Part shown: positions 37,053 through 57,294 of the stretch, piece by piece | Layout: each line of letters begins with the position of its first letter | Numbering within the stretch: position 1 is the stretch's first letter | From: Flavobacteriales bacterium | GTDB taxonomy: Bacteria > Bacteroidota > Bacteroidia > Flavobacteriales_E > Vicingaceae | Assembly: GCA_002401955.1 (NCBI GenBank) | Contig: NVUQ01000005.1 | Location: forward strand, 1 to 64,000 | Length of the DNA stretch: 64,000 nt | Direction of reading: 5' to 3' | Translations under genes and position numbers: made by a program | Notes under the pieces: model-generated | Seen by the model: the letters and a program-made list of their open reading frames with translations, nothing else | Databases searched by the model: none | Told to the model about the DNA's origin: nothing

Positions 37053-37080
37053 AGTATTTTGCTTTAAATGAATAATAATT

Positions 37081-37150
37081 TAAAACTACCCACTACTTTA
37101 AGTTTTTACCGAAATAACTTTACGGGGAGCAATTTGAGTTTACGAACGGT
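37081..37150 (-). promoter_or_regulatory. LytTR-type operator A and promoter
   Basis: Reading the minus strand, ACCGTTCGTAAA starts at 37150 and a second half-site GCTCCCCGTAAA starts exactly 20 bp on. After the 35-bp operator come 27 bp, then TAGTTTTA at 37088-37081 (TAnnTTTG-like). The first half-site fits the published LytTR consensus [TA][AC][CA]GTTN[AG][TG] at all nine positions. Controls the FG-GAP T9SS gene. Confidence 0.75.
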
Positions 37151-37230
37151 AAATTTGTACTGTTTAAATCTAAATATTGCAACTTTAATTAGCCTATATT
37201 TGGTGGTACAAATGATATCTTTATTCAATA

Positions 37231-37264
37231 AAAAAGCCGAGCTCCATTTACTGAAGCCAGGCCA
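37231..37264 (-). terminator. Cassette A hairpin
   Basis: Imperfect GCC...GGC stem (GGAGCTCGGC arm followed by TTTTTT on the minus strand) that should end the transcript of the leucine-rich-repeat gene. It is the weakest of the three cassette hairpins because of two mismatches. Confidence 0.6.
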
Positions 37265-37275
37265 TTCTTAAAAAA

Positions 37276-37496
37276 AACTAACTCTACTTAGTCTTTTATA
37301 AAACGACTGTGGGTTAACCCGTTATCAGTTTTTATTTCTAAAATGTATAATCCTTTAATTAAGTGAGCTACATTAATAGTCGTATTAGTTAATCTCTTAG
37401 TTTCAACTATTTTTCCTGTAACATCAATAATTTTAATCGTTTCTATATTTTCTTCTGTATCTATTGTGATTTGATAAGATGTTGGGTTTGGGTAAA
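37276..37496 (-). repeat. C-terminal-domain duplication, copy 1
   Basis: 221 bp covering the 3' flank AACTAACTCTACTTA and the T9SS-domain coding sequence. Copy 2 is 38821-39041; I find a single difference (T/C, in the AAGTGAGCnACATT segment). Such identity next to unrelated upstream domains implies recent duplication or gene conversion. Confidence 0.95.
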
Positions 37497-38595: not shown

Positions 38596-38623
38596 AGTAT
38601 TTTGCTTTAAATGAATAATAACT

Positions 38624-38693
38624 TAAAATTAGCGACAACCTGAATGGTTTACCGAAATAACTTTACGGGGAGCAATTTGAGTTTATGAACGGT
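38624..38693 (-). promoter_or_regulatory. LytTR-type operator B and promoter
   Basis: ACCGTTCATAAA at 38693, GCTCCCCGTAAA 20 bp on, 27 bp, then TAATTTTA at 38631-38624. The sequence between operator and -7 element differs from copy A yet has the same length. Controls the leucine-rich-repeat gene. Confidence 0.75.
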
Positions 38694-38772
38694 AAATTTG
38701 TACTGTTTAAATCTAAATATTGTAACTTTAATTATCCGATATTTGGTGGCACAAATGATATCTTTATTCAAT

Positions 38773-38808
38773 AAAAAAGCCGAACTCCATTTACTGAAGC
38801 TCGGCCTT
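38773..38808 (-). terminator. Cassette B hairpin
   Basis: GGCCGAGCTTCAG / TGGAGTTCGGCTTTTTT on the minus strand, a stem with two G-U type pairs and a T-run, after the LamG gene. Confidence 0.75.
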
Positions 38809-38820
38809 TATATGAAAAAC

Positions 38821-39041
38821 AACTAACTCTACTTAGTCTTTTATAAAACGACTGTGGGTTAACCCGTTATCAGTTTTTATTTCTAAAATGTATAATCCTT
38901 TAATTAAGTGAGCCACATTAATAGTCGTATTAGTTAATCTCTTAGTTTCAACTATTTTTCCTGTAACATCAATAATTTTAATCGTTTCTATATTTTCTTC
39001 TGTATCTATTGTGATTTGATAAGATGTTGGGTTTGGGTAAA
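38821..39041 (-). repeat. C-terminal-domain duplication, copy 2
   Basis: Partner of 37276-37496, same length and one base different. The 15-bp 3' flank AACTAACTCTACTTA also occurs at 41028-41042, next to cassette C, where the neighbouring gene is no longer a T9SS gene. Confidence 0.95.
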
Positions 39042-40803
39042 CAGAAAAGCTAGTTGCAGCCGTTTGTTCATTTATTCCTGTTGATGTTACCGTAACTGTA
39101 GCTGTTTGGGTCATTTGAATGCTCCAAGAAGGACCTCCAGTACTACGACAAGGAATTGCTGCTGAGCTAACTACTTTCCAGTCTGTTGCAGGATCCATGT
39201 TCGTAAGTGTAGCATCATTGTTACCAAGCTCATCAGTTGCAGTTAAGCCACTTGTATTATTAAATTTATAAAAAGCTTCTAAACCACTTTCAGTACCTGT
39301 TAAACAACTGTACATATTAGCATTAATTTCGGAAGAAGTTCTTGCAGTACTCCAAATTCTATAATCATCTAACTGACCTTTAAAATATTTAGGTCCCCAG
39401 CTTGGTGTAAACGCATTACTTTTAATATATCCTATGTTAATTTCAGCACTTGTTGACATTAAAGGTGCAGCATTAGATTGGCTACCTTGAGAAACACCAT
39501 CATAAAATACTTTTATAGTAGAACCATCAAACACTACAGCCAAATGGTACCAAACGTTGTTAGGTGGGTCAGGAAATGATGCACCTTGAACTGCCCCTCC
39601 ATTACCTCTATTATGCACAACAACCATATCATTTGTTCCTTTTTGCACATATACTTCAATATCACTTCCTACAGCATCTCCAGCAAAAAATATAGGGTAA
39701 TATGCAGCATTTCCTGGTAGTGGAGATTTTACCCAAGCTTCTAAACTATAAGAATTGTTGTATTGAAAATTTGTAGGAATAGTAGTAGATAAATAATCAT
39801 TAGAGCCATCAAAATCTAACCCATTACCAATACCTGTTCCACCCGGAATGGCAGCAGACTCAACGATAATCCAGTCTGTTGCAGGATCCATGTTGGTGAG
39901 AGTAGCATCGTTAGATCCTACTTCATCAGTTGCAGTTGAACCAGTCGCATCATTAAATGTATAAAAAGTTTCTAATCCAGTTTCAGAACCAGTTAAAGAA
40001 TTATGCATGTTAGCATTAATTTCTGATGATGTTCTTGCTGTACTCCATATTCTATAATCGTCTAATTTTCCTGTAAAAGCTGCAGGGTTCCCTCCTCCAG
40101 CACTCCAAGGACTACTAAAAATATCTCCAATCGTAATGCTAGCTCCACTCGTTTGAAGAGGTGTAACATTAGATTGGATACCTTGAGAAACACCATCGTA
40201 AAATGCCTCTATGGTAGAACCATTAAAAACTACAGCTAAATGATACCAAACGTTGTTAGGTGGATCAGGAAATGTTGCACCTTGAAGTGTCCCTCCATTA
40301 CCTCTATTATGAGCAACAACTAAGTCGTTAGTATTTTTTTGCACATAAATCTCAATATCATCGGCTACCGCTGTTCCAACAAAAAATATAGGGGAGTGAC
40401 CTGTATTTCCTGGGAGTGGTGATTTTACCCAAGCTTCAATAGTATATGAAGTGTTGTATGGGAAGTTTGTTGGTAAAGAAGCTGTAAGGTAATCATTACT
40501 TCCATCAAATTCTAAACCAACACTGTTAGTACTTTCGGTGTAAATATTAAATGTTTCTGTGGCTGTTAATATTCCTGTGTTAAACGATATATCGTTGCCA
40601 TTACCAGGAATTGGTCCAGCTATTACTGTATTACTACTGTTTCTTAAAGAGTAATTTACTCCTTGCTGAGAACCAGTTGTAGAAATTGTACTGCTTTGTG
40701 ATGCTGTTATTGAAGCAGGTGTTGCAGTTACAGCTACATCTGTAATTTGAGCATTTATATTAAATGCTGAAATAATTAACATACTTAGTAAAATTTTTTT
40801 CAT
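38833..40803 (-). CDS. Two-LamG-domain T9SS surface protein
   Basis: 656 residues. Signal peptide MKKILLSMLIISAFNINAQ. Two concanavalin/LamG domains at about 95-310 and 330-550 are internal duplicates (GLEFDGSNDYLTASLPTNFPYN / GLDFDGSNDYLSTTIPTNFQYN; GSTIEAFYDGVSQG / GSTIKVFYDGVSQG; DDYRIWSTARTSSEINANM in both). LamG domains usually bind sugars or proteins. The T9SS domain is identical at the protein level to that of the leucine-rich-repeat protein. Preceded by LytTR-type site C. Likely a surface binding protein in the same regulon. Confidence 0.87.
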   Translation of the reverse strand: MKKILLSMLIISAFNINAQITDVAVTATPASITASQSSTISTTGSQQGVNYSLRNSSNTVIAGPIPGNGNDISFNTGILTATETFNIYTESTNSVGLEFDGSNDYLTASLPTNFPYNTSYTIEAWVKSPLPGNTGHSPIFFVGTAVADDIEIYVQKNTNDLVVAHNRGNGGTLQGATFPDPPNNVWYHLAVVFNGSTIEAFYDGVSQGIQSNVTPLQTSGASITIGDIFSSPWSAGGGNPAAFTGKLDDYRIWSTARTSSEINANMHNSLTGSETGLETFYTFNDATGSTATDEVGSNDATLTNMDPATDWIIVESAAIPGGTGIGNGLDFDGSNDYLSTTIPTNFQYNNSYSLEAWVKSPLPGNAAYYPIFFAGDAVGSDIEVYVQKGTNDMVVVHNRGNGGAVQGASFPDPPNNVWYHLAVVFDGSTIKVFYDGVSQGSQSNAAPLMSTSAEINIGYIKSNAFTPSWGPKYFKGQLDDYRIWSTARTSSEINANMYSCLTGTESGLEAFYKFNNTSGLTATDELGNNDATLTNMDPATDWKVVSSAAIPCRSTGGPSWSIQMTQTATVTVTSTGINEQTAATSFSVYPNPTSYQITIDTEENIETIKIIDVTGKIVETKRLTNTTINVAHLIKGLYILEIKTDNGLTHSRFIKD

Positions 40804-40830: not shown

Positions 40831-40900
40831 TAAAACTACCTACTACTTTAAGTTTTTATCGAAATAACTTTACGGGGAGCAATTTGAGTTTACGAACGGT
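40831..40900 (-). promoter_or_regulatory. LytTR-type operator C and promoter
   Basis: ACCGTTCGTAAA at 40900, GCTCCCCGTAAA 20 bp on, 27 bp, then TAGTTTTA at 40838-40831. Controls the LamG gene. Confidence 0.75.
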
Positions 40901-41059: not shown

Positions 41060-42409
41060 TTATTTGGCATGTTCACATTTTAATTTAAACGGTGCTCCTA
41101 AAATTCCATCAAAATAAACTGTTAAATATTTACTACCATCATATTCTTGTGCAAAAACTGCATCATGATAGCTACAAAGTCCATCAGGTCTAGTCATTAC
41201 AATAACTCCTTTAATTGCTCTTGCTGTTTGAATACCACTAACTTTATGTCTTCTAATTCCCCAATCAGCACCAGAAAAATATACTCTTGTAAGTGTTTCT
41301 TTCCAGCTGTATTTTGCTGCAAAACCCTTAGCAGCTGTTAATGCTTGAGCTTCTAATTTAGCATCTACTAAACCTCTTTTTGGAAGTCTTCTGTTGGCGA
41401 TGTTTTTACTTTCTTTATCAGCTCTTCGCTTATCTTCAGCCGTTTTAATCTTTTTAGTCCAGGCAGCAACTTTGGAGTCTATTTCTTTTTGCTCACTTTC
41501 ACTGTTCAATAAACCTCTTACCACTTGTTTGTCCATAGCATACAGGTTGTATTGATCGTATTTTCCCCAAAGCTGTGTTCCTAACGCACCACTTTTGTAT
41601 CGTGTCCAAATTAATACCCCAGGTTTATCAACATAAATATATCTGTGTAAATTAAGACTAGCATCGGTATAAACATCTACTCCAGCAATTTTACTAAATT
41701 CAGGCATGTGAATAAAAGTAGTTGTTCCTCCTGCCTTTCTTAAAATTTTCTTTTCAGCTCCTGCTTCAAACGTTATTTCAATTTCACCGTAAGCTTTCCC
41801 TGAAAATTTAACAGGAGTTGCAGCAGAATAAGTTCCATTACCTCCTTTAGATGGCCCTGATGATGAAGGTGCTAAAATCTTATTAGATAAATCAATGGCA
41901 TAAGCTTCTGCTTTTGCTTTAGTCATCGATTTTGCTTTCGATGCATCTGAGCTATAAAAGTTACTAAATGCAAACTTACCAAACGGTGCTTTACCTAATT
42001 GTTTGTCAGGCATTACCGAAACCCAGCTGTTTTCATCATATTCAATTACATAAATACCTGCTGTAGTAAAATATATTTTTTTACTTAACATTTTACTCGG
42101 CTCATCTTGATAAGTGTAGGGTGCTCCATTAATGGCGATAATCTTTTTGCCATTAAGTTCTCCTTCTTCCGCCTGCACTTTAGTTTTTCCTCTTTCAGCT
42201 TCCATTAAATAAAGGGTTGTACCTCCTTTAGTAGTAGAGCCTGTTGTTGTACTTGTTTTAGCAGGAGTACTAGTTTTAGCAGGAGTACTTGATTTAGCTT
42301 TAGCAGCAGCAGCTTTAGCCTTTAGTTTGTCCTTGAAAGATTGAGCGTAACAATCATTTACTGTTAGTGATGTTGTTGCAATCAATGTTGCAATAATTAG
42401 ATTTTTCAT
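41060..42409 (-). CDS. Secreted protein of unknown family
   Basis: 449 residues with signal peptide MKNLIIATLIATTSLTVNDCYAQ. A low-complexity linker rich in Lys, Ala, Ser and Thr (AAAAKAKSSTPAKTSTPAKTSTTTGS) follows, then a beta-rich globular part (TTLYLMEAERGKTKVQAEEGELNGKKIIAING...) and a Lys-rich helical stretch near 315-340. The end contains YHDAVFAQEYDG and two late Cys residues (LCSYHD, LKCEHAK). No T9SS domain and no family I recognise. It has its own LytTR-type operator with the same geometry as the T9SS genes, with a perfect -7 element, so it is a member of the regulon. It may occupy the place of a lost T9SS gene. Confidence 0.7.
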   Translation of the reverse strand: MKNLIIATLIATTSLTVNDCYAQSFKDKLKAKAAAAKAKSSTPAKTSTPAKTSTTTGSTTKGGTTLYLMEAERGKTKVQAEEGELNGKKIIAINGAPYTYQDEPSKMLSKKIYFTTAGIYVIEYDENSWVSVMPDKQLGKAPFGKFAFSNFYSSDASKAKSMTKAKAEAYAIDLSNKILAPSSSGPSKGGNGTYSAATPVKFSGKAYGEIEITFEAGAEKKILRKAGGTTTFIHMPEFSKIAGVDVYTDASLNLHRYIYVDKPGVLIWTRYKSGALGTQLWGKYDQYNLYAMDKQVVRGLLNSESEQKEIDSKVAAWTKKIKTAEDKRRADKESKNIANRRLPKRGLVDAKLEAQALTAAKGFAAKYSWKETLTRVYFSGADWGIRRHKVSGIQTARAIKGVIVMTRPDGLCSYHDAVFAQEYDGSKYLTVYFDGILGAPFKLKCEHAK

Positions 42410-42786
42410 ATGTTTTTTTTTAAGTTATTGTATAAAATTAAATTTAATAAAAAGCCAATTTACATTGTTGCAAACCAGATTTTTAACGAACTAAAAATAC
42501 TAAAATATTTTTTTCATAGTTTTTGGTTTAAACTTAGACATGTACAAAACTATGTTTGATCTAGGTATAAACACCTTAAAACTTTACGAACAGCCATTTT
42601 ACTTTAGGAACGGACAGTTTTGTGTTTTTTAGAATGGGTTTTACCATATCAATGGTGGGAAATGTTCGTTTAATTTGTTTTTATCTTCTTTGAATGGGGT
42701 TTTTATTGATCAACAGACTCTTTAATAGTGGAGGTAATAATGTAGTGTCTATATTTATCAATATTAAATGTTCTTTTGATAATACC
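42410..42786. other. Spacer holding operator D
   Basis: 377 bp between the unknown secreted protein and the TPR kinase. It contains operator D and its promoter, implying a leader of about 130 nt before the ATG at 42409. The part between 42615 and 42786 has no recognisable structure; no terminator for the kinase was found. Confidence 0.5.
42545..42614 (-). promoter_or_regulatory. LytTR-type operator D and promoter
   Basis: TCCGTTCCTAAA at 42614 and GCTGTTCGTAAA exactly 20 bp on, 27 bp, then TAGTTTTG at 42552-42545, a full TAnnTTTG match. Unlike A-C this copy is not part of the duplicated cassette: the flanking sequence is unrelated, so the shared motif and spacing were kept or arose independently. 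Confidence 0.8.
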
Positions 42787-44661: not shown

Positions 44662-44879
44662 AGCATAGGGAGTTTTACCATATATTTTATACGAAAATTT
44701 TGCTAAAAAGATTGGTAATATAAAATTATAACTGCTATTAGCAATGGAAAATCATCTAAAAAGCGAAGTAAAATTATTTCTTGAATGGAGAATGAAGAAT
44801 GAAGAATGAAGAATGGAGAATTAAGAATTATGAGTTAAGATTGGAGAATAGAGAAGGGAAAATAATTATTTTTACCTAA
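44662..44879. repeat. Purine-rich GAATGGAGAATGAAG tract (core 44782-44860)
   Basis: A run of degenerate words GAATGGAGAATGAAGAATGAAG... over about 80 bp in the spacer after the kinase start. The strand bias is opposite to the pyrimidine tract at 26.1 kb. No gene or promoter was resolved in this part of the spacer. Confidence 0.8.
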
Positions 44880-45005
44880 CCACTAACCACTAACCACTAA
44901 CCACTAACCACTAACCACTAACCACTAACCACTAACCACTAACCACTAACCACTAACCACTAACCACTAACCACTAAACACTAAACACTAAACACTAAAC
45001 ACTAA
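44880..45005. repeat. Heptamer array: 14 x CCACTAA plus 4 x ACACTAA
   Basis: An uninterrupted 126-bp array with a period of exactly 7 bp, changing from CCACTAA to ACACTAA after unit 14. It lies 33 bp past the HlyD stop codon. A short 2-copy repeat TCCAATCTCAAAT follows at 45010-45036. The period is out of phase with 3, so any translation would shift frame in each unit. Confidence 0.97.
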
Positions 45006-45038
45006 CTAATCTCCAATCTCAAATATCCAATCTCAAAT

Positions 45039-46319
45039 CTACTTATCCAATACTTGTCTAAATTTGTTAAAGATCCTTTCTAATAATCTTAAATCTTCGG
45101 TAATAATTTCGGCAGTTCCTGCCATATCTGGTTTGTAACTTAGTGTTTTATTGTAAGTGCTGGTTAAACCATCAGAGAGTTTTACCTGAACAAAATAACC
45201 CTCTTTTCCAGATATTTGAGAGATACTAACGATTGTTCCTGTTAACTGCCCGTATTCCTGATAGGGATAGTTATCTAACTTCATTTTTACTTCTTGACCA
45301 ACTGTAATTTTACCATAACCTTGAGGTGCTATTTTAACGTTTCCAATATAAGCCTGATTACTTGGAACAACAGCAAATAAGGGTTCTTGATCAGAAATGT
45401 ATTGATTGGTTGTAATGGCTTTTAAATACGAAATCTTCCCCTTAAATGGAGCAGTTATCGTAAAGTTTTGTTGCCAGCTTTGAGTATAACTTTTTAAGGA
45501 ATTACGAGCAGATTTAATGTTGTTTTTTAACCCTCTGATTTTATCATCATGGCTTTTGTTTAATTCATTTTGCTGTTTTAAATAGTTGGCTACAGTAATT
45601 TTATGTTGTACGTAAGTTTTTTGACTGTTTAATAGTTGTTCCTTTTTTCTAAAGTATTCACTTTGGTTATTAAAAAATTCATTTTTAGAGATTACCTTTT
45701 TATAATACAAGGAACTATCTGCATTAAATTTCTGGTCAGCGTTTTGTATTTCTTGTCTTAACAAATTTAATTGTGACTTAGTAATCTTAGCTAATCTATC
45801 GTTGTAATTAATTTGTAGGGCAATGTTTTTTAAGCTGTTCTTGTAAAAGTTATCAGTAGTAATTTCGTGGTATTCTTTTAAGTTATTGTGTAAGCTGTTA
45901 AATGTTGTTTGAGCTTCACCTAATATTCCTATTTTTTCTAATAAGGGTAATATTGTTGCAGTATTATCAAACGTAAAATTGTTTATCAACGTATTTAGGC
46001 TATCAATGGTTTCTTTATTAGTAGGATTGGTTATTACAGCAATGGTTTGCCCTTTTTTTACGGTTGTATTGTCTTTATGATAAAGTTCTTGTATATAACC
46101 AGTAGTTTTACTAATGAGTTTAGCAGGAGGTTGTTCTGTAGTAAGCGTTACTTGTCCGGGTATAATATCAGGGTATTTTATAAACCAAGATATAAATACG
46201 AGCATTACAATTATTCCAAAAATTAAGGAAATACCCCAACGTATCATCCAATTAGGTACGTGAGATAAAATCTCTTGAACTTCATCACTACGAATTTCTA
46301 TTTCTTTATTCTCTGGCAT
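45039..46319 (-). CDS. HlyD-family membrane fusion protein of the lanthipeptide exporter
   Basis: 426 residues. A cytoplasmic N-terminus (about 27 residues), one transmembrane helix (MIRWGISLIFGIIVMLVFISWFI), then a lipoyl half (LISKTTGYIQELYHKDNTTVKKGQTIAVI), a long coiled-coil hairpin (about 90-285) and the second half of the lipoyl/beta-barrel region (TAPFKGKISYLKAI, AGTAEIITEDLRLLERI). It should link the C39 ABC transporter in the inner membrane to an outer-membrane channel so that the matured peptide leaves the cell. The gene follows the transporter gene after a 183-bp spacer with hairpins. No TolC-like gene is in the window. Confidence 0.85.
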   Translation of the reverse strand: MPENKEIEIRSDEVQEILSHVPNWMIRWGISLIFGIIVMLVFISWFIKYPDIIPGQVTLTTEQPPAKLISKTTGYIQELYHKDNTTVKKGQTIAVITNPTNKETIDSLNTLINNFTFDNTATILPLLEKIGILGEAQTTFNSLHNNLKEYHEITTDNFYKNSLKNIALQINYNDRLAKITKSQLNLLRQEIQNADQKFNADSSLYYKKVISKNEFFNNQSEYFRKKEQLLNSQKTYVQHKITVANYLKQQNELNKSHDDKIRGLKNNIKSARNSLKSYTQSWQQNFTITAPFKGKISYLKAITTNQYISDQEPLFAVVPSNQAYIGNVKIAPQGYGKITVGQEVKMKLDNYPYQEYGQLTGTIVSISQISGKEGYFVQVKLSDGLTSTYNKTLSYKPDMAGTAEIITEDLRLLERIFNKFRQVLDK

Positions 46320-46502: not shown

Positions 46503-48689
46503 TTACAACTCCAACTGGTTTTTTACTAAATTATAATAGTTCCCTTTTAAAGCTGTTAACTCCTCATGTGTTCCTCTTTCTATAATTTTTCCTTTATCCA
46601 ACACCACTATTTGATCAGCGTTTTTAACAGTGCTTAATCGATGAGCAATAACAATAGCAGTTCTTTCTTTAAAAAACTCGTTTAAGTTCTCCATAATTAT
46701 TTTCTCATTGTTGGCATCCAACGAACTTGTTGCTTCATCAAAGAAAATGAATTGTGGGTTTTTATAGACTGCTCGAGCGATGAATAAACGTTGTTTTTGT
46801 CCGCCACTCATACCAACCCCTTCCATACCTATTTTGGTATTATAGCCTAGTGGTAAGCCATCAATGTATTCTTTAATGTTCGCTATCTCAACAGCTTTTT
46901 TTAATCGTTCTTTATCTATGCTATCTTGTCCAATGGCAATGTTATTAGCAATGGTGTCGTTAAAAATATAACCATCTTGCATTACAACACCACTGTGGTT
47001 TCTCCATGCTTGGTGCGATATATTATTTAAATGATGTTGTGCTATAGTAATTTCACCTTGGTTGGGTTCATAAAATTTCAATAAGATTTTCATTAGGGTA
47101 GTTTTGCCACTTCCGCTGGCTCCAACAATTGCAGTTATTTTATTGGCAGGAATAGTTAAATCAAGTCCTTTTATTACTTCTTCGGGGCTTCCTGTGTACC
47201 TAAAGTGAATGTTTTTTAATGTAAAATCATCATTAACAGGAACATCATGTATACGCTGTTCTTCAGCATTTTCCTCATCATCTTTGTTATGAATTTCTGA
47301 TAAACGTTCTAGCGCTATTTTTGCATCTTGGGCCGAATGGATAAATCCAATTAATTGTTGAATAGGACTATTAAGTTGACCAATAATATAAGAAATAGAC
47401 AACATCATCCCCAAGGTAAGTTGACCCTCAATAACCAACTTAGCTGAAAAAATTGTAATTAAAATATTTTTAAGTTCATTAATAAAGTTGGATCCTAAAC
47501 TTTGTGTTTGTTCCAATCTTAAACTTTTTATTTCAATTTTAAATAAACGAGCCTGAACATACTCCCAGCTCCATCTTTTTTGTCTTTCTGCATTGTAAAG
47601 CTTTATTTCTTGCATGCCGTTAATGAGCTCCATCACCTTGCTTTGTTCACCACTCATTTGGGTAAATCGTTTGTAATCTAGGTCTTTTCGCTTTTTTAAG
47701 AAAAGCATTACCCAAACAAAATAGAATACACTTCCTATTAAAAATATAGTGAATATTTGCATGCTGTACCAGGCCAATACACCACCAAATATCACTAAAT
47801 TAAACATCGAAAATAACACATTTAACGATGTGCTAGTAAGTAGGTTCTCAATACGTTGGTGGTCACTTATCCGCTGCATAATGTCACCAGTCATCTTGCT
47901 ATCAAAAAATGCAATGGGCAAATTCATTAATTTAATAAAGAAATCCGAAACCAATGAAATGTTAATTCTTGTGCTTAAATGGAGTAATATCCAACTTCTA
48001 AGTAATTCTATACTTGTTCTACCTATAAATAAAAACAGTTGTGCGGCTAAAATGAGATAAATAAAACTAATGTCTTGGTTTTGTATCCCAACATCAACCA
48101 CACTTTGGGTTAAAAACGGGAATATTAGTTGTAATAAACTTCCTGCCAATAAGCCTATAATTAATTGTACTAAGAATTTTTTATATCGAAACAGGTATTG
48201 AAATAAAAAAGAAAAACCTTGTTGGGTTTCATTATTATCGTCTTCTTCAGATTGATTAAGTCTAGGTGTAGGTTCTACAAATAGTGCAATACCTTCTTCA
48301 GTATTTTCGCTAGCATTATTTCCTATCCAACTTTTAATAAAATCTTGACTATCATACTCTAACAATCCATGAGCTGGATCAGCTACAAAAACCTTCTCTT
48401 TTTTTATTTTATAAACAACTACAAAATGTTCTTGATTCCAATGAACAATACAGGGTAGGGGAGCTTCATTATTTAGTTTGTTAAAGTTAACCTTAACTCC
48501 TAAGGTCCGAAATCCAATTTTCTCAGCCGAATCAGCAATATTTTTTAAGCTACTTCCTTCTCTTGTTGTTTCTGATAGTTTACGAAGTTTAGATAAGGAT
48601 ATACTCCTACCATAGAACTTAGCCAACATACGTAAACATGTTGGCCCACAGTCCATTTTATCTGGTTGATTATAAAAAGGGAATGACAC
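46503..48689 (-). CDS. C39 peptidase-containing ABC transporter
   Basis: 728 residues: a peptidase and exporter in one chain that cuts leader peptides after Gly-Gly and exports the core. Domain order: C39 peptidase (1-140) with catalytic Cys14 in KMDCGPTCLRM, His in EHFVVVYKI and Asp in VADPAHG; membrane domain (about 165-450, six helices); nucleotide-binding domain with Walker A GASGSGKTT (about 524), signature SGGQKQR (about 624), Walker B FIFFDEATSS and the H-loop AIVIAHRLST. The start is GTG, sharing the G of the LanB stop TAG, so translation is coupled. The GG leader in the precursor gene fits this peptidase. Confidence 0.95.
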   Translation of the reverse strand: MSFPFYNQPDKMDCGPTCLRMLAKFYGRSISLSKLRKLSETTREGSSLKNIADSAEKIGFRTLGVKVNFNKLNNEAPLPCIVHWNQEHFVVVYKIKKEKVFVADPAHGLLEYDSQDFIKSWIGNNASENTEEGIALFVEPTPRLNQSEEDDNNETQQGFSFLFQYLFRYKKFLVQLIIGLLAGSLLQLIFPFLTQSVVDVGIQNQDISFIYLILAAQLFLFIGRTSIELLRSWILLHLSTRINISLVSDFFIKLMNLPIAFFDSKMTGDIMQRISDHQRIENLLTSTSLNVLFSMFNLVIFGGVLAWYSMQIFTIFLIGSVFYFVWVMLFLKKRKDLDYKRFTQMSGEQSKVMELINGMQEIKLYNAERQKRWSWEYVQARLFKIEIKSLRLEQTQSLGSNFINELKNILITIFSAKLVIEGQLTLGMMLSISYIIGQLNSPIQQLIGFIHSAQDAKIALERLSEIHNKDDEENAEEQRIHDVPVNDDFTLKNIHFRYTGSPEEVIKGLDLTIPANKITAIVGASGSGKTTLMKILLKFYEPNQGEITIAQHHLNNISHQAWRNHSGVVMQDGYIFNDTIANNIAIGQDSIDKERLKKAVEIANIKEYIDGLPLGYNTKIGMEGVGMSGGQKQRLFIARAVYKNPQFIFFDEATSSLDANNEKIIMENLNEFFKERTAIVIAHRLSTVKNADQIVVLDKGKIIERGTHEELTALKGNYYNLVKNQLEL

Positions 48690-51600
48690 TAGACTACTAA
48701 TTCTTTTTGAAGTTGTTTTTGTTTAGCTAGTTCAGATCGATAGGTACGCCACATAAAATCATAAATGACCATTTCATGTACTCTTTGTTTATTTTTAAAT
48801 ATTCGATTTAAAAGCATATGAATATAACTTGATAATAAATTATTAAGAGAAAGATCTAATTTGTTTTCTTTATGGATTTTTAATATTTCTTTATTAAATG
48901 GAGCACTTTGCCTTGACTTATTCTCTAGCAGTACAAATAAGGGGGCTAACTGCTTATTAACATTCTGTCTATTATTGAATAGTTCAGCAATATCTTTTCT
49001 ATGTATTCTAAATTTTTTATCTAATTGCATTTTTAATCGCTTATTCATATTAAACTCTGTAGCAAACCCATCTTTTAGTGATTCGAGTAGGTTCCTTTTT
49101 TTCTCAAAATTAAAATTAAAGTCCGTAAGCAATGTATCGATAGCTTTAATCGCAAATTTCCATCTTATTTCTTCTCCTTCATCACCTTCTAACATATCAA
49201 TCATGTTAACTATGCAATTACTCTCAATATGAAATAAACTTTCACTTATAACCATCGTTCTTTTGCCATATCTTCCAATTTCTCGTTGATAGGTATCCGT
49301 TTGAATTTTCCAAATTAATCTGTTTTGTTGATATTCCTTAATTGAATTATGAAATAAAGAAAGAACCTTTCCAACATGGTTAATATCCCTAAAATGAAAA
49401 CGAACCCTTAGGTGAATTTCTGGATCTGCATAACGGATAAAAAACCAAGAGTCAATTAATCCTTCATTAATTAATTGTTGAGATAGTGGTTTAATTACTT
49501 CTGTTAGTATTTTATCTCCAATTTTCACACCACAATACAACTTATAATAAAGCCACTCAGACCCTAAAGAAAATTCTCGTTGAAGATTAATTTGATTTTC
49601 AATTACCTTAGACTCTGCATTTACACGGTTAAGTGTTGGTTCTGAAAAATCAGCATTCTCTTTTTGGGTAGTCTTTTGTAAAATACTTATAAATTCATTG
49701 GTATACATGTTCCCATTTTGATCTTTAGTGGTTGAATTTTTCTTATCAAATAAAAACTCTTTTAAAATTATTTTTTGTCGTTTTCTGATAATAGAGATGA
49801 ACATTTCTCTACTAAGTTTGTTTTGAAAGTCAATTACTAATTTATTATCACCATCTGCTAATAATACTATCTCTGGTAGTTTCCATTTTTCTCTCCAAGT
49901 AGAAATATTTTGATCCAGTTGATTATCTTTTTTTAATAGGATTTCAAAATCATTTTTGATAAGTTGCCAAGTTGCAGGAGAAATGATAACATTTTCTACT
50001 TCAACTCTTGGTAAGAAGTCAAATTCGTTACTTAAATCCCCCCAACTAAAGTATAGTCCTTCTCTAAGATTCTGACCTTGTAGATCACATAAGAAATGAT
50101 AAACAGGAAGTGCCTTGAATGAGTAATTGTGAGCATTACCTAGACGAGGAATAATTTCTTTGTTCAATCTTTTAGAACGTAGTATAACTCTGTTATTTTT
50201 TATAGAAATAAATAAGTCATTCACCCTAATCTGTTGTTCTTTTGATAGAGTCGAATTAGATAGGTAGGGAATTTCATAATTTCTAAATGTAGGCCGCATT
50301 AAAACATTCCCTGTTCTACTTTCTGGAAGGTGAGCTATTTCAGCAAATATCACATGGGGATTGTTCTCTTGTTCAGTATTAGCAATTTCTCTTACTAATT
50401 GTTCAATTTCTTTGTTGTTAGAAGCAAAACGACCTAACAAATAGGTAGCGCTTGTTCCTCCAATGCTCTCAATACTAAAAAGGTCACTTCCCTCTCGTTT
50501 TCCTAAATAGTTATACATTATCGAAAAACTTTCAGGCAAATCATCCCAGTTTGATTTAAAATCTTTTAGATCATCTATTTTAAGATTTATTACTTGTTCT
50601 TCGTTATCTTTTGATTTAAGTAATTGTTGAAAAAGAAATGATTGTACTCCGTTCCAAGATATTTTTAACTCTGAGTTTTGTTCATTTGGTAAGGTTAAAT
50701 TATTTATCAGAGGGTTAACATCAACAGTATGATTATTATTATGACCATAACCTAATCCAGATTCACTATCTAAAGCTTCTAATAAAGGTATTTCTTTATC
50801 TTCAAAATGACTATAAAATTTATCTCGAAAATTCTTAAGATTTGTTTCTTTTGGCTTTGATGTTAATTGATTTAAAACTTCAATTGCCTTTTTTAAGCCA
50901 TTATTTAAATTTTCAAGATGTGAATCATTATTCCGTATAGGTTTCTTATGATTTGTTTCTAAGTAAAGATCTGTTTGAAAAAGTTTGCCTAATTCAAAAG
51001 GAATGTTTAAAAGATTTAAATTTTCAGATAATTTTTCATAAACAGAAATAGAGTTCCCTATTTTTTTGTCTATTTGAATTAATTCTTTTTGAGTTACTTG
51101 TAAGAGTTTAATTATTTCAGAAAGTTCTTGAATCTCCTCTTTTTGCTGAATATTTATTAATACTCTTAAAATTTGATTGAGTAACTCCTCACCAATTACT
51201 GCTGGCTCTAATTCACTTACTAAAAGTTGAGCTTCCACAACTTGATTTACAAATTCCAATGCATTTTCTATATTAATATCTTCTTGTACTATAGATTGTG
51301 CTAACTCTTCTATTGAAGCTCCTTTTTTTGATTTATTTAAAATTTCATTTAAATAAAAAGAACTATCTACGGAGCTAATTTGGTTAGTTCTAGATTTGTT
51401 TTTATAAAAATATTCTATATATCTAATTTTATCTTGTAACTTATAAATACTTGTATTTGGATAAAATTTAAGATGTTTTTTTATAAAAGGTAATTTGGTT
51501 AATTCTTGAGCTAAAGCACAACTAAAGTTCATATCTAACCGAGTACTTCGTTCTTTTTTTGAATTTATAATAATATCGTGACGTCCTGTATCAGTAGTTC

Positions 51601-51877
51601 CACAGGCAGCAAACAATCCAAATGGGGTACAACGGTTATGCATTCGGAGTGCATATTTTAACAAAGAATTTATTAACCTTTTTTCATCTACTTTATCAGT
51701 TATTTCTCCTTTTTGCCATTTAATAAATTCATTCAATAAATTAGGTGATGAAAGAAATAAGGCCTCTTGTATATCCTTTTTTAAATATAATTCGATTAAC
51801 TCTTTCCTATTAAAACTAGTCTTTATTGGTTTACTAGGAGTTCTCAAAATGGATTTTGGGTGATAAGAGTATTTCAT
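48689..51877 (-). CDS. Lanthipeptide dehydratase LanB, full length
   Basis: 1062 residues. LanB uses glutamyl-tRNA to glutamylate Ser and Thr of the precursor and then eliminates glutamate to give dehydroalanine or dehydrobutyrine. The N-terminal domain has the lantibiotic-dehydratase pattern (RTPSKPI, MHNRCTPFGLFAACG, RLDMNFSCALA near 115) and the later VLMRPTFRNYEIPYL segment. The C-terminal elimination domain (about 765-1045; GSEWLYYKLYCGVKIGDKILTEVIKPL, SWFFIRYADPEIHLRVRFHF) is fused in the same chain, unlike split LanB systems. Gene order precursor-LanC-LanB-exporter and coupling to the exporter place it in the operon. Active-site residues were not aligned one by one. Confidence 0.93.
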   Translation of the reverse strand: MKYSYHPKSILRTPSKPIKTSFNRKELIELYLKKDIQEALFLSSPNLLNEFIKWQKGEITDKVDEKRLINSLLKYALRMHNRCTPFGLFAACGTTDTGRHDIIINSKKERSTRLDMNFSCALAQELTKLPFIKKHLKFYPNTSIYKLQDKIRYIEYFYKNKSRTNQISSVDSSFYLNEILNKSKKGASIEELAQSIVQEDINIENALEFVNQVVEAQLLVSELEPAVIGEELLNQILRVLINIQQKEEIQELSEIIKLLQVTQKELIQIDKKIGNSISVYEKLSENLNLLNIPFELGKLFQTDLYLETNHKKPIRNNDSHLENLNNGLKKAIEVLNQLTSKPKETNLKNFRDKFYSHFEDKEIPLLEALDSESGLGYGHNNNHTVDVNPLINNLTLPNEQNSELKISWNGVQSFLFQQLLKSKDNEEQVINLKIDDLKDFKSNWDDLPESFSIMYNYLGKREGSDLFSIESIGGTSATYLLGRFASNNKEIEQLVREIANTEQENNPHVIFAEIAHLPESRTGNVLMRPTFRNYEIPYLSNSTLSKEQQIRVNDLFISIKNNRVILRSKRLNKEIIPRLGNAHNYSFKALPVYHFLCDLQGQNLREGLYFSWGDLSNEFDFLPRVEVENVIISPATWQLIKNDFEILLKKDNQLDQNISTWREKWKLPEIVLLADGDNKLVIDFQNKLSREMFISIIRKRQKIILKEFLFDKKNSTTKDQNGNMYTNEFISILQKTTQKENADFSEPTLNRVNAESKVIENQINLQREFSLGSEWLYYKLYCGVKIGDKILTEVIKPLSQQLINEGLIDSWFFIRYADPEIHLRVRFHFRDINHVGKVLSLFHNSIKEYQQNRLIWKIQTDTYQREIGRYGKRTMVISESLFHIESNCIVNMIDMLEGDEGEEIRWKFAIKAIDTLLTDFNFNFEKKRNLLESLKDGFATEFNMNKRLKMQLDKKFRIHRKDIAELFNNRQNVNKQLAPLFVLLENKSRQSAPFNKEILKIHKENKLDLSLNNLLSSYIHMLLNRIFKNKQRVHEMVIYDFMWRTYRSELAKQKQLQKELVV

Positions 51878-51929: not shown

Positions 51930-53120
51930 TCAATATAACAAGATTGATTTTTCCCAATCAGATATTTCATAATTAATAGCAGAAATCAAAGCCAATCCTA
52001 TACCTTCTACCCCAGTAAGAATTCCTATTTCTTCTTCGTATTTATTTTTAGTAACACAATTTTTGAATTGTATTTTTGAATTTAAAATCTTATTACTTTC
52101 ATTGTACCAGTAATGAACAGCATCTTTAATTTCATTTGATTTCCAATAACAATTAAACCATTTGTTAAAAACATGAGCGATACCTAGTGTGCCATGACAT
52201 ATAATGGCTGAATTAATATCGTGATTATCGATTAGTTTAAATTTGGAAATTTTAGTTGCAATACTAAATGCACGCATGTTAATTTCTTTATCATTTAGAA
52301 CTTTAGAAGAATATGCCAAAGCACTTACGATACCCAATTCCCCATGACACCATCTTAGGGGACTAAAGTTCGTTTCAGATTTACTTATAGAGTCAGGAAT
52401 CCTGTTGTTATTTTCATAATATAAAATTTGAGAACATATATTTTTTGCAATGGGTTTAAAGTAATCCGGGGATATATTTAATTCAATTAACCTACTTATA
52501 AACATTAATATTGAGGATAAACCATGTGATATGCTTAAATCTATTTCATTTTCATTAGATGTTTTTTTTTTCCACCTATAAAATGATTCATTTTTTTTGG
52601 ATACTTCTATTAGTTTAAGTCCTATAGTATTTAATTTATCATCAACTTCATTCGTAGATTGAGCTCTATTAAGAAAGTAATTCGCACAACCTAGGGCGCC
52701 ATAAAAAAAATCGTAATTATTATTATCTAGATAATTTATATTTAATTTAAAAATATGTTGATCCAACCCATTAAAAGTTTCCTGTAAATTAACAGCTAAA
52801 ACCTCCGATTGAGATAAACTAGAAATTCCATAACCAAAGTTTACTAAGCCAAAAAGATTGTTTAAAGGAATGTTATTATTCTCTATATATTCAAATGCTT
52901 CTGTTACGTAATCATTGATTATTAAATTATTTTTCTCTTTATCTTCAGGGTAAAGCCTAGATAAGGAACTTAAATATAATGCTTTAGACAGAGCTCCATT
53001 AAAAATAGAAAGTTTATCTTCACTCCTACTGGTTGAAATTTTTTTGGAAATTTTTTTTAAACAAATCTCAAAATCTTTTTTATAACACATATCCAATATA
53101 CTAATGAAAAGGCCTAACAT
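51930..53120 (-). CDS. Lanthionine synthetase C-like cyclase (LanC)
   Basis: 386-396 residues. LanC is a zinc enzyme that adds Cys thiols of the precursor to dehydrated residues, forming lanthionine rings. The family motifs are present in order: SISHGLSSI (about 193), RWCHGELGIVSAL (Cys about 260) and IICHGTLGIAH (Cys-His about 308), giving the Cys, Cys, His zinc site about 50 residues apart as in NisC. The start in the ORF track lies inside a terminator-like hairpin; the Met at 53090 (MCYKKDFEI) is preferred. It is 52 bp upstream of lanB. Identity as LanC is secure from motifs and context; catalytic competence is inferred. Confidence 0.93.
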   Translation of the reverse strand: MLGLFISILDMCYKKDFEICLKKISKKISTSRSEDKLSIFNGALSKALYLSSLSRLYPEDKEKNNLIINDYVTEAFEYIENNNIPLNNLFGLVNFGYGISSLSQSEVLAVNLQETFNGLDQHIFKLNINYLDNNNYDFFYGALGCANYFLNRAQSTNEVDDKLNTIGLKLIEVSKKNESFYRWKKKTSNENEIDLSISHGLSSILMFISRLIELNISPDYFKPIAKNICSQILYYENNNRIPDSISKSETNFSPLRWCHGELGIVSALAYSSKVLNDKEINMRAFSIATKISKFKLIDNHDINSAIICHGTLGIAHVFNKWFNCYWKSNEIKDAVHYWYNESNKILNSKIQFKNCVTKNKYEEEIGILTGVEGIGLALISAINYEISDWEKSILLY

Positions 53121-53136
53121 TTATATTAGGCCTTTT
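53107..53136 (-). terminator. Hairpin between precursor and lanC (attenuator candidate)
   Basis: 11-bp stem AAAAGGCCTAA / TTAGGCCTTTT with an 8-nt loop, starting 14 bp after the precursor stop codon on the minus strand and ending in a short T tract. Because lanC, lanB and the exporter lie downstream without another obvious promoter, partial termination here would give many precursor transcripts and fewer enzyme transcripts. Confidence 0.8.
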
Positions 53137-53150
53137 TTGAATCTAACTAT

Positions 53151-53369
53151 CTATTTAGGTTGTGGCTGACACCCTGTACCTGGATGATTCAGAGGATTAT
53201 CTATTGAATACTGACAAGTTTGACCATTATTATCCGCATTTGTATCAGGATCATATCTGTGGTTAGACCACTTTAGTTTTAGTCCTGTTTTCCCAATCCC
53301 TCCATGAATATGATTCATATCATTAGAAGATAATGTTGCAATTGTTTGCTTATTTAATTTTAATTTCAT
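53151..53369 (-). CDS. Lanthipeptide precursor with double-Gly leader
   Basis: 72 residues. The leader MKLKLNKQTIATLSSNDMNHIHGG matches the Bacteroidota 'natural product precursor, GG' type (LKLNKxTIAxL...GG). Cleavage after Gly24 gives a 48-residue core containing Thr28, Ser35, Thr43, Thr51, Ser55 and Thr65 as dehydration candidates and Cys52 and Cys67 as ring donors, so at most two thioether rings. The core is hydrophilic and rich in Asn, Asp, Pro and Gln (DPDTNADNNGQTCQYS, NPLNHPGTGCQPQPK), not membrane-active in appearance. It heads the minus-strand operon and is preceded by operator E. The core sequence is not one I recognise. Confidence 0.9.
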   Translation of the reverse strand: MKLKLNKQTIATLSSNDMNHIHGGIGKTGLKLKWSNHRYDPDTNADNNGQTCQYSIDNPLNHPGTGCQPQPK

Positions 53370-53520
53370 ATTTCAATAATTTAAAGTCTACTTTAATATT
53401 TAACCTTTAAACTATATGTAGACTAAATACAGTTGTCAAGGTTGCATGAAATTATCAGTCTGCAAACAGATTCTTCATGACTTTAATAAAACGGTATTAC
53501 AGTACCATTTTAATATGGCA
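53370..53520 (-). promoter_or_regulatory. Structured leader of the precursor gene; alternative promoter
   Basis: If transcription starts downstream of operator E, the leader is about 145 nt. It holds an inverted repeat GGTACTGTAATACC (53493-53506), a TAGTCTAC / GTAGACT pair around 27 nt close to the start codon (53385-53424), and an extra ACCGTT half-site at 53490-53495. A TTGACA-17 bp-TATAGT pair (53439-53411) resembles a general sigma-70 promoter, but this consensus is unusual for the phylum. Which of the two is used cannot be told here. Confidence 0.45.
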
Positions 53521-53590
53521 CCAATTTATGTTCATACTGCTTAATATGTGTGATAAAATTTTTTAACGGTATAAAGAGTTTTTTAACGGT
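53521..53590 (-). promoter_or_regulatory. LytTR-type operator E and promoter of the lanthipeptide operon
   Basis: ACCGTTAAAAAA at 53590 and the same 12-mer exactly 20 bp on (53570); after the 35-bp operator come 27 bp and TAAATTGG at 53528-53521, one base off TAnnTTTG. Spacing and orientation equal those of sites A-D when read toward the precursor gene. On the other strand the operator ends 23-26 bp before a TATTTTCG element (53616-53623) ahead of the sensor kinase gene, so it may also autoregulate the two-component system. Confidence 0.75.
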
Positions 53591-53631
53591 AAATAATGAA
53601 CTGAAATCAAATTAGTATTTTCGTCAAAATT

Positions 53632-56535
53632 TTGATTTTTAAATTTTACCATATCATTTGCTTTTTCATATTAATTAATTGCTCAATTAAGGGGCAATTA
53701 TATGAAAATAATAAAATAAACTATGGTACAGATGATGGCTTGCCTAGCTCAGAATGTTATGAAATAATACAAGATAGCAAAGGTTATATTTGGTTTGGTA
53801 CAGATAGAGGTGTTGTAAAATACAACGGATATGAGTTTAAAGTGTTTACAACCCAGGATGGCTTAAACAACAATGTAGTGTTTCATATTGCAGAAGGTGC
53901 TGACGGTAAAATATGGTTTTATGATAAAACGCATCAATTAAGTTATATGCATAATGATAGTATTTACCCTTATAAATACAATCATTTGCTTAAAGAACAC
54001 ATCAATGAAATATCTAGAACATTTGGGATAACTATAGCTGATAATAATACCATTTACTTTAGTTTCTCTAGTGCGAAGAATGAAAATATAAAAGGGATTA
54101 CAGATGAGGGGATTGTATTGTATAATCCAAGATCAAGTAATTTTTTGTTTAATCAGGTAAACAAAAAAGTAACAATTAATTATAATGCATATAATTTTAA
54201 ATATGTTGACCACTCTAAAAATCTTGTACAATACAGTGTTTGTTATAAAAACGAAAAAAATGAGTTAACAAATTCTATTACTCATAATCCTAATAATACG
54301 TTTATATCAGTTTTAAGAGCTACTACAGATCTTAAGTCTTTGTGGTTTAGTCATCATAATAAACTCTTTGAGTTGGATGAAAATGGAAATATAAATGAAT
54401 TGTATTCATTTAATGAGGGGATTATAGAGCTTGAAATTGATAAACATGGAAACCTTTATATTGGCTTATTGTATAGTGGATTATGGGTTTTTCCGAATGC
54501 AAATACTAAAAATAAATATAAGTTAATTGATAATTGTTCCGTTTCTGGATTTGTAAGAGATAAAAATGGAGGAATATGGATAAGTACTTTAGAAAAAGGG
54601 GTCTTTTATTACCCATCAAATTCATTTTCTAACTACACCCCTTCAAAGGGTAAGAAAATTGATGGTATTGGAGGGGCTGATAATAATATTGTTTATAGTA
54701 CAGAGAAAGGAGAACTGGTTAATCTTACAACGAATAAGCCACTGAAATTAGAAAAAAATAGATCAAAACCTATAAGGAATATTATTACATTAAATAAAGA
54801 GAGTTTTATTGTAACAGCAGATAGAGCCTTGAGTTATTTCTATTTCGATATTAATAAAAAACCAATTTTATTACCAACATCATGCAATGACTGGTTGAAG
54901 GTAAAGAATAACTTATATGGTGTTAATGATGGGAATATATATCAAGCTTTTAAAAACGATTATCAATCAAATCTTTTATTTAGAGGAGACATTAAGTTTA
55001 ATTGCTTGGAAAGTAATTTTGATAATTCTAATATATTACTAGGTTCAAACAAAGGGATTTATCAATATGCTAATGATACTTTATTTAGATGGAAAAAGGA
55101 TGAACCCTTGTATGAGACAAGAGTTTCGGACATGGCATTGTTTAAGAACAATATTCTTTTTTCTGCTACAAGAGGAAATGGGTTGATAGTCCATGTAAAA
55201 GACAGTACACCCTACATTATATCTGATAAACAAGGGCTAATTAGTAATGAATTAGATAATATATACATAAATGGCAATCATGTTTATGTCTTATCAAAAG
55301 AAGGCATGAGTTTATTAAGTTACGATGGAGAAAAGTTTAAGATTACCAATTATACAAACAATAACGGTCTTTTAAGTAATGAGGTAAATGGTGTTTTTGA
55401 ACATGATGATATGGTTTGGGTAGCGACAAATAAAGGAATTACAAGGTTTAATTTATTACAACAAAAAAGTAACATATTTAACTCTCCGGTTTATTTAACA
55501 TCATTTAAAGTATTAGATCAAATTATTGATAATAAACAACAGATCACTTTGGCACATCAAGAAAATGAGATTGAATTTTCTTATGAAGCTATTTCTTTTG
55601 CAAGTAAAGGGAAAATTAATTACAAGTATCAAATGGAAGGGATGGATAATGATTGGGTGTTTACACAATCAAGAAGATTAAGATATCCTCGCTTACCCTC
55701 TGGAGATTTTGAGTTTAACATTTCATATCAACATCCAGATAAAACTTGGTCAGAACCAATAACATTGTTTAAAATAACGAAAAACAAACCAGTGTGGGAG
55801 AAATTATGGTTTTATATATTAATTATAATTGCTTTTGTGGGAATTGTTTTGTTGGTAGTTCAACGATATATTAAAAAAATTAAAAAAGAGGATGAAATAA
55901 GACAAAGAATAACTGATCTTGAAAGACGAGCGCTACAAGCTCAAATGAATCCGCATTTTATTTTTAATTCGTTAACATCAATACAAAGTTTAATTGCACA
56001 ACACAATAATGAAAAAGCTGAATTATTTTTAGTAAGATTTTCTCGATTGGTAAGAACAGCACTAAATCAATCTTCAACTTCTTATGTTGTTTTGGCAGAA
56101 GAGTTAGAATTGATAAATAATTACATTGAGATAGAGGCTTTAAGATTCTCTAATGCATTTGATTGGTTTATTAAGATAGAAGGTGATATAGAAGTTGAAG
56201 GGATAAAAATACCACCAATGGTTATACAGCCTTTTATAGAAAATGCCATTGAACATGGTTTACTTCCTTTAGATAAAAAAGGATTAATAAATATAAGTTT
56301 AAAAAGAATTGATGATTCCATGCTACAATGGAGTATAGATGATAATGGAGTAGGAAGAAAAGTGGCGGGAACTAAACACAAGAAAAAAGGTAGAGAATCA
56401 AAAGGAATAAAATTAGTTAAAGACCGTTTATTTATTCTTAATAAAAAATCAACTGTTAAATTTGAAGATTTAATAGATGGTGAACAATCAAAAGGAACAA
56501 AGGTAATTTTAACTATACCTTATCAAAATGGATAA
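53632..56535 (+). CDS. Propeller-domain LytS-type sensor histidine kinase
   Basis: 967 residues. A signal sequence (FKFYHIICFFILINCSIKGQ) is followed by a periplasmic two-component-regulator beta-propeller (YGTDDGLPSSECYEIIQDSKGYIWFGTDRGVVKYNG near 28-65 and further blades to about 620), a Y_Y_Y domain (about 650-715), a transmembrane helix (LWFYILIIIAFVGIVLLVVQ, about 724-743) and a LytS/YpdA-like kinase: QAQMNPHFIFNSLTSIQSL with the phospho-acceptor His near 780, then ENAIEHGL and DNGVGR ATP-binding motifs. The start is a TTG that begins 8 bases after the TATTTTCG element (8 bp between them), so the mRNA may be nearly leaderless. It is divergent from the lanthipeptide operon and 3 bp upstream of its regulator gene. 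Confidence 0.88.
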   Translation: MIFKFYHIICFFILINCSIKGQLYENNKINYGTDDGLPSSECYEIIQDSKGYIWFGTDRGVVKYNGYEFKVFTTQDGLNNNVVFHIAEGADGKIWFYDKTHQLSYMHNDSIYPYKYNHLLKEHINEISRTFGITIADNNTIYFSFSSAKNENIKGITDEGIVLYNPRSSNFLFNQVNKKVTINYNAYNFKYVDHSKNLVQYSVCYKNEKNELTNSITHNPNNTFISVLRATTDLKSLWFSHHNKLFELDENGNINELYSFNEGIIELEIDKHGNLYIGLLYSGLWVFPNANTKNKYKLIDNCSVSGFVRDKNGGIWISTLEKGVFYYPSNSFSNYTPSKGKKIDGIGGADNNIVYSTEKGELVNLTTNKPLKLEKNRSKPIRNIITLNKESFIVTADRALSYFYFDINKKPILLPTSCNDWLKVKNNLYGVNDGNIYQAFKNDYQSNLLFRGDIKFNCLESNFDNSNILLGSNKGIYQYANDTLFRWKKDEPLYETRVSDMALFKNNILFSATRGNGLIVHVKDSTPYIISDKQGLISNELDNIYINGNHVYVLSKEGMSLLSYDGEKFKITNYTNNNGLLSNEVNGVFEHDDMVWVATNKGITRFNLLQQKSNIFNSPVYLTSFKVLDQIIDNKQQITLAHQENEIEFSYEAISFASKGKINYKYQMEGMDNDWVFTQSRRLRYPRLPSGDFEFNISYQHPDKTWSEPITLFKITKNKPVWEKLWFYILIIIAFVGIVLLVVQRYIKKIKKEDEIRQRITDLERRALQAQMNPHFIFNSLTSIQSLIAQHNNEKAELFLVRFSRLVRTALNQSSTSYVVLAEELELINNYIEIEALRFSNAFDWFIKIEGDIEVEGIKIPPMVIQPFIENAIEHGLLPLDKKGLINISLKRIDDSMLQWSIDDNGVGRKVAGTKHKKKGRESKGIKLVKDRLFILNKKSTVKFEDLIDGEQSKGTKVILTIPYQNG

Positions 56536-56538
56536 TTT

Positions 56539-57294
56539 ATGAAAGTTGTAATTATTGATGATGAAGAAAATTGTAGGATACTTCTTGCACATAAAATTAA
56601 TAAATATTGCAAAGAAGCAACGATTGTAGGTGAAGCTTCTAGTGTGAAAACAGGTGTTAATTTAATTAATGAAAAAAAACCTGATCTAATTTTTTTAGAC
56701 ATCCAAATGAATGATGGTACTGGTTTTGATTTGTTAAATAAAATAAAAGAAATAAAATTTAAAATAATTTTTACAACTGCATTTGATCAATATGCGATTA
56801 AAGCATTTAAATATTCAGCCATTCATTATTTATTGAAACCTCTAGATTACATTGAATTGATAGATGCGTTTAATCGGGCAACAAAAGAAGTAAATTATCA
56901 GGAACAAACAAAGGGGTTTTTAAATTCGTATCAAAATGGAAATTTTGATACAATTTGTATAAGAACAGAAGATAACCTTTATAAGTTGCTCTTATCAGAA
57001 ATTGAATTAATAGAAGCAGAAGGAAGTTATTGTATTTTTAATTTAGAGGATAAAAAAAAGATAGTGATTTCTAAATCATTAAAAGAATATGAACAAATAT
57101 TGCCTCATGAAAATTTTGTAAGAGTACATAGATCATACTTAATTAATTTTAATTTTATTAAAGAATTTGACTACAAAAATTCCGATATAAAGTTGAAATC
57201 AGGAAAAAGGGTACCTGTTTCTAGAAGAAAGAAAAACAACTTTTTAAAAATGGCTTTAGATACAAATCATATAGAGCTAAAAAAGAAAAATTAA
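56539..57294 (+). CDS. LytTR-family response regulator
   Basis: 251 residues. The receiver domain has VVIIDDEENC, the phosphorylation site LIFLDIQMNDGTGFDLL (Asp near 54), FTTAFDQYAIKAF and the YLLKPLD lysine. The C-terminal LytTR DNA-binding domain spans about 140-245 (LSEIELIEAEGSYCIFNLEDKKKIVISKSLKEYEQILPHENFVRVHRSYLINFNFI). LytTR proteins bind pairs of 9-bp direct repeats about two helical turns apart, which is the pattern of sites A-E. Co-transcribed with the propeller kinase. It is the natural candidate to bind all five sites; no other LytTR gene is in the window. Confidence 0.92.
   Translation: MKVVIIDDEENCRILLAHKINKYCKEATIVGEASSVKTGVNLINEKKPDLIFLDIQMNDGTGFDLLNKIKEIKFKIIFTTAFDQYAIKAFKYSAIHYLLKPLDYIELIDAFNRATKEVNYQEQTKGFLNSYQNGNFDTICIRTEDNLYKLLLSEIELIEAEGSYCIFNLEDKKKIVISKSLKEYEQILPHENFVRVHRSYLINFNFIKEFDYKNSDIKLKSGKRVPVSRRKKNNFLKMALDTNHIELKKKN

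Follow-up and report, generated by a model that had tools for sequence, protein, structure and literature searches.

A divergent two-component pair, consisting of a sensor kinase with a periplasmic propeller and a LytTR response regulator, is a plausible controller of a class I lanthipeptide operon in this member of the Flavobacteriales. In our preferred reading, to which we assign a probability of roughly 0.58, the regulator activates the precursor gene lanA through operator E, a tandem-repeat site in the intergenic region shared by both units, with the lan operon standing in the output place that surface proteins usually occupy. The DNA of the window, that is, the whole stretch of 64,000 nucleotides analysed here, and of the related loci directly shows the gene set, operator E with its geometry, and the association of this site with pairs of this kind. 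The earlier note had proposed that the divergent pair regulates the operon, and this survives as a prediction, by way of E and its activator geometry toward lanA.

We infer binding, activation, the phosphorelay, a ligand and the cognate pairing as follows. The propeller kinase (53632-56535) would sense some periplasmic ligand and phosphorylate its partner LytTR regulator (56539-57294), which would bind the tandem half-sites of E and activate a promoter 30 bp downstream, leading into lanA-lanC-lanB-lanT-hlyD. LanB and LanC would then dehydrate and cyclise the precursor, to be exported by LanT and HlyD and cut after the double Gly. Related pairs in the order would use the same layout beside T9SS surface-protein genes or beside their own regulator gene, the lan operon being found here instead, and operators A-D, elsewhere in the window, would play the matching part for another pair, located on contig C8.

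Results

The lanthipeptide operon

Both Pfam and NCBIfam mark lanA-C-B-T-hlyD, which runs from 53369 to 45039 on the minus strand, as a class I lanthipeptide operon, and the LanB dehydratase and LanC cyclase that define such a cluster are both present by Pfam. The first gene, lanA (53151-53369), encodes a 72-aa class I precursor that matches NCBIfam NF038153 (lant_leader_L1a) with 29.9 bits against a cut-off of 22, and thus carries a recognised leader. This leader, MKLKLNKQTIATLSSNDMNHIHGG, combines LxLxKx5L with a double Gly, as reported for the leaders of class I precursors in Bacteroidota (PMC7268733). The core of 48 aa holds 6 Ser/Thr and 2 Cys, and a (methyl)lanthionine product is predicted. 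On the same strand follow the cyclase lanC (51930-53120; LANC_like, PF05147, 5.4e-39), the dehydratase lanB with both its domains (48689-51877; PF04738, 1.4e-135, and PF14028, 1.4e-71), lanT, an ABC exporter with a C39 double-Gly peptidase (46503-48689; PF03412, PF00664, PF00005), and a HlyD-type periplasmic adaptor (45039-46319; PF13437, 2.6e-15). In its LxLxKx5L double-Gly leader, LanB, LanC and C39 exporter the operon resembles other Bacteroidota class I clusters, with LanB being full length here, whereas that of pinensin is split.

Between lanA and lanC lies a minus-strand hairpin (53107-53136) of -16.2 kcal/mol (z -4.8), equalled in 0 of 200 shuffles, which could possibly serve as an attenuator or an RNA processing site. 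Since the annotated ATG of lanC sits within this hairpin, the true start of that gene may be located further downstream. No regulatory RNA families were found in the window at gathering threshold.

The kinase and its LytTR regulator

As the earlier note had it, the kinase-regulator pair is placed head to head with the precursor gene: lanA and lanC are on the minus strand, and the pair occupies 53632-57294 on the plus strand. The kinase (53632-56535) is 967 aa long with a TTG start, and matches Reg_prop, Y_Y_Y and PF06580, arranged as a signal peptide-like N-terminus, a periplasmic propeller sensor, Y_Y_Y, one membrane helix and His_kinase. Its AlphaFold model (pLDDT 76) matches the fold of the periplasmic domain of BT4663 (4a2m, E 4e-37), and a sequence search agrees in that the nearest solved relatives of the sensor are Bacteroides hybrid two-component (HTCS) sensors, BT4663 being the best. 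The structure of BT4663 is titled as a heparin/heparan sulphate sensor, though fold likeness does not pin down the ligand of the modelled kinase. The periplasmic propeller and Y_Y_Y sensor of HTCS proteins is thus present according to Pfam and the fold match, and the combination of propeller, Y_Y_Y and kinase is that of the Bacteroides systems (BT4663, BT3049, BT4673). Those systems are fused hybrids, whereas here the kinase lacks receiver and AraC domains and is accompanied by a stand-alone REC-LytTR regulator, with a lanthipeptide operon as the predicted output.

This regulator (56539-57294, plus strand) has 251 aa and the REC and LytTR domains of LytTR two-component systems (PF00072, 6.4e-20; PF04397, 1.6e-21), including FVRVHRS, to be compared with the FhRhHRS motif (PMC4227749). 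LytS/LytTR systems such as E. coli YpdA/YpdB likewise pair PF06580 with REC-LytTR, and their tandem direct-repeat operators are spaced much like the one predicted here, except that a large propeller sensor here replaces the membrane sensor domain. A further likeness, in gene placement, is to NisK/NisR of nisin, where two-component genes likewise adjoin a class I lanthipeptide operon. NisR is an OmpR-type regulator, whereas the DNA-binding domain found here by Pfam is LytTR, and the sensor is a propeller.

The genome (4.19 Mb in 150 contigs, estimated completeness 83%) yields 15 matches to PF06580 and 22 to LytTR, and several of its PF06580 proteins are propeller kinases of ~950 aa paired with LytTR regulators. 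A homologue of the kinase occurs in 46 of the 46 genomes of the order that were examined. In other genomes, full-length matches reach ~31-33% identity at best, and a scan of genome contigs with the kinase returned two remote relatives only. In a regulator tree, the window regulator falls outside a group with 100/100 support, hereafter clade X, its own position being poorly supported (88/85, long branches). It also differs from clade X at LytTR positions that a visual alignment places opposite the DNA contacts of AgrA.

Operator E and the predicted lanA promoter

Operator E (53559-53589, minus strand) is a predicted LytTR tandem site toward lanA, in which two copies of CCGTTAAAAAA are separated by 9 bp, forming a perfect LytTR-type tandem repeat with a period of 20. 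LytTR sites consist of two direct repeats of 9-11 nt each, with 11-13 nt between them (PMC4847170). The earlier note had placed E between kinase and precursor in the orientation of A-D, and this stands, given that strand, period and the 30-bp gap to the box are alike. All of A-E have a common layout, consisting of two half-sites with period 20, then 30 bp, and then a TAnnTT[TG][AG] box, which occurs at a frequency of ~0.0065 per base in the intergenic DNA of the window. For E, this is the imperfect TAAATTGG (53521-53528, minus strand), a -7 box predicted to serve the lanA operon. As -7 boxes are placed at -12 to -5, with TAnnTTTG used by flavobacterial sigma-A promoters (PMC9723704), the lanA start is predicted near 53516, which would leave a 5' UTR of ~147 nt. 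This exceeds the median of 24 nt in F. psychrophilum (PMC9723704) and, like the imperfect box, counts against the preferred reading.

Toward the kinase, the element that the earlier note had seen some 23 bp from E does exist, as TATTTTCG (53616-53623, plus strand), 26 bp beyond the final base of the half-sites. As a -7 box for the kinase it is possible but weak, agreeing with 5 of 6 Bacteroidota consensus positions, and its start site would fall ~4 nt before the TTG start; elements of this type number 7 in the window against 3.3 expected. It is therefore no more than a candidate promoter element for the kinase gene. A forward operator for the kinase and regulator genes themselves was not found. 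In genome-wide pattern searches, which are the sole basis of our genome-wide statements on operators, the exact pattern of D and E occurred only at these two sites, and the A-D pattern gave one further match with two mismatches. E has no E-like counterpart from which the motif of the window regulator could be defined.

The same layout at other propeller-kinase/LytTR loci

In 101 loci, totalling 180.6 kb of intergenic DNA, we searched for perfect 11/11 tandem repeats at LytTR spacing (period 20-22) that are followed by a box after 28-31 bp. Only four sites emerged, namely E and one each in L157 (11398), L153 (4213) and L233 (5410). Each of them lies next to propeller-kinase/LytTR genes, and 8.1% of the DNA searched is flanked by such genes. 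By position, the probability of four out of four is 4e-5. As these search criteria were set after E had been seen, E is not independent, and the three other sites are for that reason counted separately, at 5e-4. With so few sites, each at propeller-kinase/LytTR genes, operator E is more than chance.

The operator lies ahead of a surface-protein gene that adjoins the regulator in L157 and L233, and ahead of the regulator gene in L153. Similarly, L229, L230 and L231 are ordered kinase-regulator-operator-surface gene. The clade-X consensus CCRTTNNTAAA, at a score of at least 21, matched 4 times across the 300 kb of the other kinase loci and nowhere in the control loci, which amount to 1.15 Mb, a result that is description more than test, the consensus having been drawn partly from the scanned loci. 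A scan that required GTT and 9/11 identity found little at other pairs, and sites appeared once the -7 box was added.

Operators A-D and the surface-protein genes

Operators A (37119-37149), B (38662-38692) and C (40869-40899), all on the minus strand, each precede a T9SS surface-protein gene (35367-37052, 37288-38595 and 38833-40803, respectively), with boxes at 37081-37088 (TAGTTTTA), 38624-38631 (TAATTTTA) and 40831-40838 (again TAGTTTTA). They are duplicated promoters and hence count as one independent case, even though B has retained the -7 box despite a diverged spacer. The T9SS genes of 35367-40803 have nearly identical upstream segments, closely similar tails and different middles, like surface-protein cassettes. 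Operator D (42583-42613, minus strand; box 42545-42552, TAGTTTTG) lies upstream of a gene for a protein of 449 aa (41060-42409, minus strand) with orthologues in the genomes G023 (87%), G042 (65%) and G027 (61%). At 42490-42545, after the box of D and at the start-codon spacing of A-C, we observed ATGAAAAAAATATTTTAG (MKKIF, then a stop), perhaps a remnant of a lost surface-protein gene.

Operators A-D probably answer to a different LytTR regulator, belonging to clade X, whose member in this genome is found on contig C8 (L169) and is the one closest to the regulators of G023 and G042. Clade-X pairs of G042, G044, G045 and others directly adjoin surface-protein genes and an operator, and that of G042 lies next to the series operator, T9SS gene, operator and homologue of 41060-42409, with a RelA-Fur-PurA-OstA neighbourhood on the surface-gene side that is common to G042 and the window. 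A clade-X matrix trained on 14 operators from beyond the window (28 half-sites, training scores 22.5-35.1) gives D 26.1, and D is therefore assigned as a clade-X site, to which A-C are added on the strength of their linkage and a well-matching distal half. The earlier note's claim that the same operators precede the surface-protein genes does not hold up in this form: the geometry is alike, but E scores 9.1, at background level, and lacks the T of clade X. Neither does its single regulator for E and the surface genes, as D by its sequence and A-D by synteny go with the contig-C8 clade. One regulon of the adjacent pair comprising A-E was accordingly dropped for A-D, with tree, synteny and matrix all against it. 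As A-D belong to the contig-C8 regulator by orthology and synteny, a link from the lanthipeptide to the surface genes is doubtful.

The surface module is separated from the lan operon by a (CTAACCA)n array (44876-45006). This array may be a point of recombination or rearrangement, or an assembly misjoin, which makes the physical linkage of surface genes and lan operon uncertain. On contig C8, a (TTAGTGG)n array (L169, 8080-8184) comes directly after the regulator; its unit is the (CTAACCA)n unit on the other strand, and related units are also located beside the regulator and the surface genes of G023.

Discussion

Could the regulator of contig C8 bind E after all? The lan operon and surface proteins A-C would then be one regulon and the adjacent pair incidental, which we regard as unlikely, albeit worth serious consideration. 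E does have CCGTT, AAA, period 20, the gap of 30 and the box in common with A-D, which by orthology, and by the gene order around the G042 pair, are clade-X outputs. Yet it stands at background in the clade-X matrix, both of its halves carrying an A at half-site position 8, where 28 of 28 training half-sites have T; with A-C also as low as 9-10, this matrix is not decisive. Furthermore, E adjoins a different LytTR regulator, just as the other perfect operators adjoin theirs. Somewhat less likely still, to our judgement, is a neutral juxtaposition, in which E is either inactive or specific to the kinase-regulator genes, and lanA has a promoter of its own. A candidate for the latter is TTGACA-17-TATAGT (11/12) at 53439-53411, closer to lanA than the box of E; the position of TATTTTCG on the kinase side would suit it too, as would the lan clusters of relatives, which have no such pair nearby. 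However, the half-sites of E and their 30-bp spacing to the box point to lanA as those of A-D point to their genes, and the promoter scan returned 7 sigma-70-like sites where 6.9 are expected in shuffles, TAnnTTTG being what flavobacterial sigma-A promoters use (PMC9723704).

The earlier note went further in suggesting that the exported peptide is itself the signal, a view to which the present results lend little support. Nisin-type autoinduction loops exist, and the head-to-head placement, a predicted activator site toward lanA and the lack of any recognisable immunity gene around the operon among ORFs and Pfam matches all agree with a propeller kinase whose ligand is a piece of the leader or the lanthipeptide itself after export. 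Nevertheless, we consider such autoinduction very improbable. Across the order, no lan genes were found beside related kinase pairs, nor was a divergent propeller-kinase/LytTR pair seen beside the other lan clusters examined, and the nearest solved relatives of the sensor are HTCS sensors. Adjacency to LytTR regulators argues the same way: clusters with LanC or LanT have one within 4 kb in 3 of 37 cases against 1.2 expected, which is not significant. The hydrophilic core, said to suit a signal, is indeed hydrophilic (GRAVY -1.38) but not diagnostic, since the majority of the 24 LanA cores compared have negative values, one of them lower still. That a mature lanthipeptide or cleaved leader would bind the HTCS-like propeller and induce its own operon through E strikes us as, if anything, a shade more far-fetched; if true, the peptide loop would amount to peptide signalling by way of a sensor of the glycan type.

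If activation of lanA by the adjacent regulator is right, it would offer a testable path by which a lanthipeptide operon of the Bacteroidota is controlled, and a family usually located beside T9SS surface-protein genes would have been put to use for a secreted, modified peptide. Moreover, the layout of two half-sites, ~30 bp and a -7 box would predict targets for the expanded propeller-kinase/LytTR families. In a limited literature search, we found no title or abstract that links LytTR regulators to Bacteroidota lanthipeptides or to T9SS surface genes.

Among LanB loci at large, a LytTR regulator is present within 4 kb in 16 of 57 others (2.1 expected), counts that include several loci per genus and are thus not independent, so that P-values calculated from them come out too small, and 13 of these 16 are without LanC and LanT. 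A LytTR pair as a general partner of LanB clusters was rejected, as it fails for those with LanC or LanT. Considered separately, LanB-like genes without LanC or LanT nearby have a LytTR regulator within 4 kb in 13 of 20 cases, where 0.9 are expected (L131, L134, L137, L138, L139, L140, L110, L128, L108 and others), and their partner is mostly a short LytS-type kinase of ~360-420 aa.
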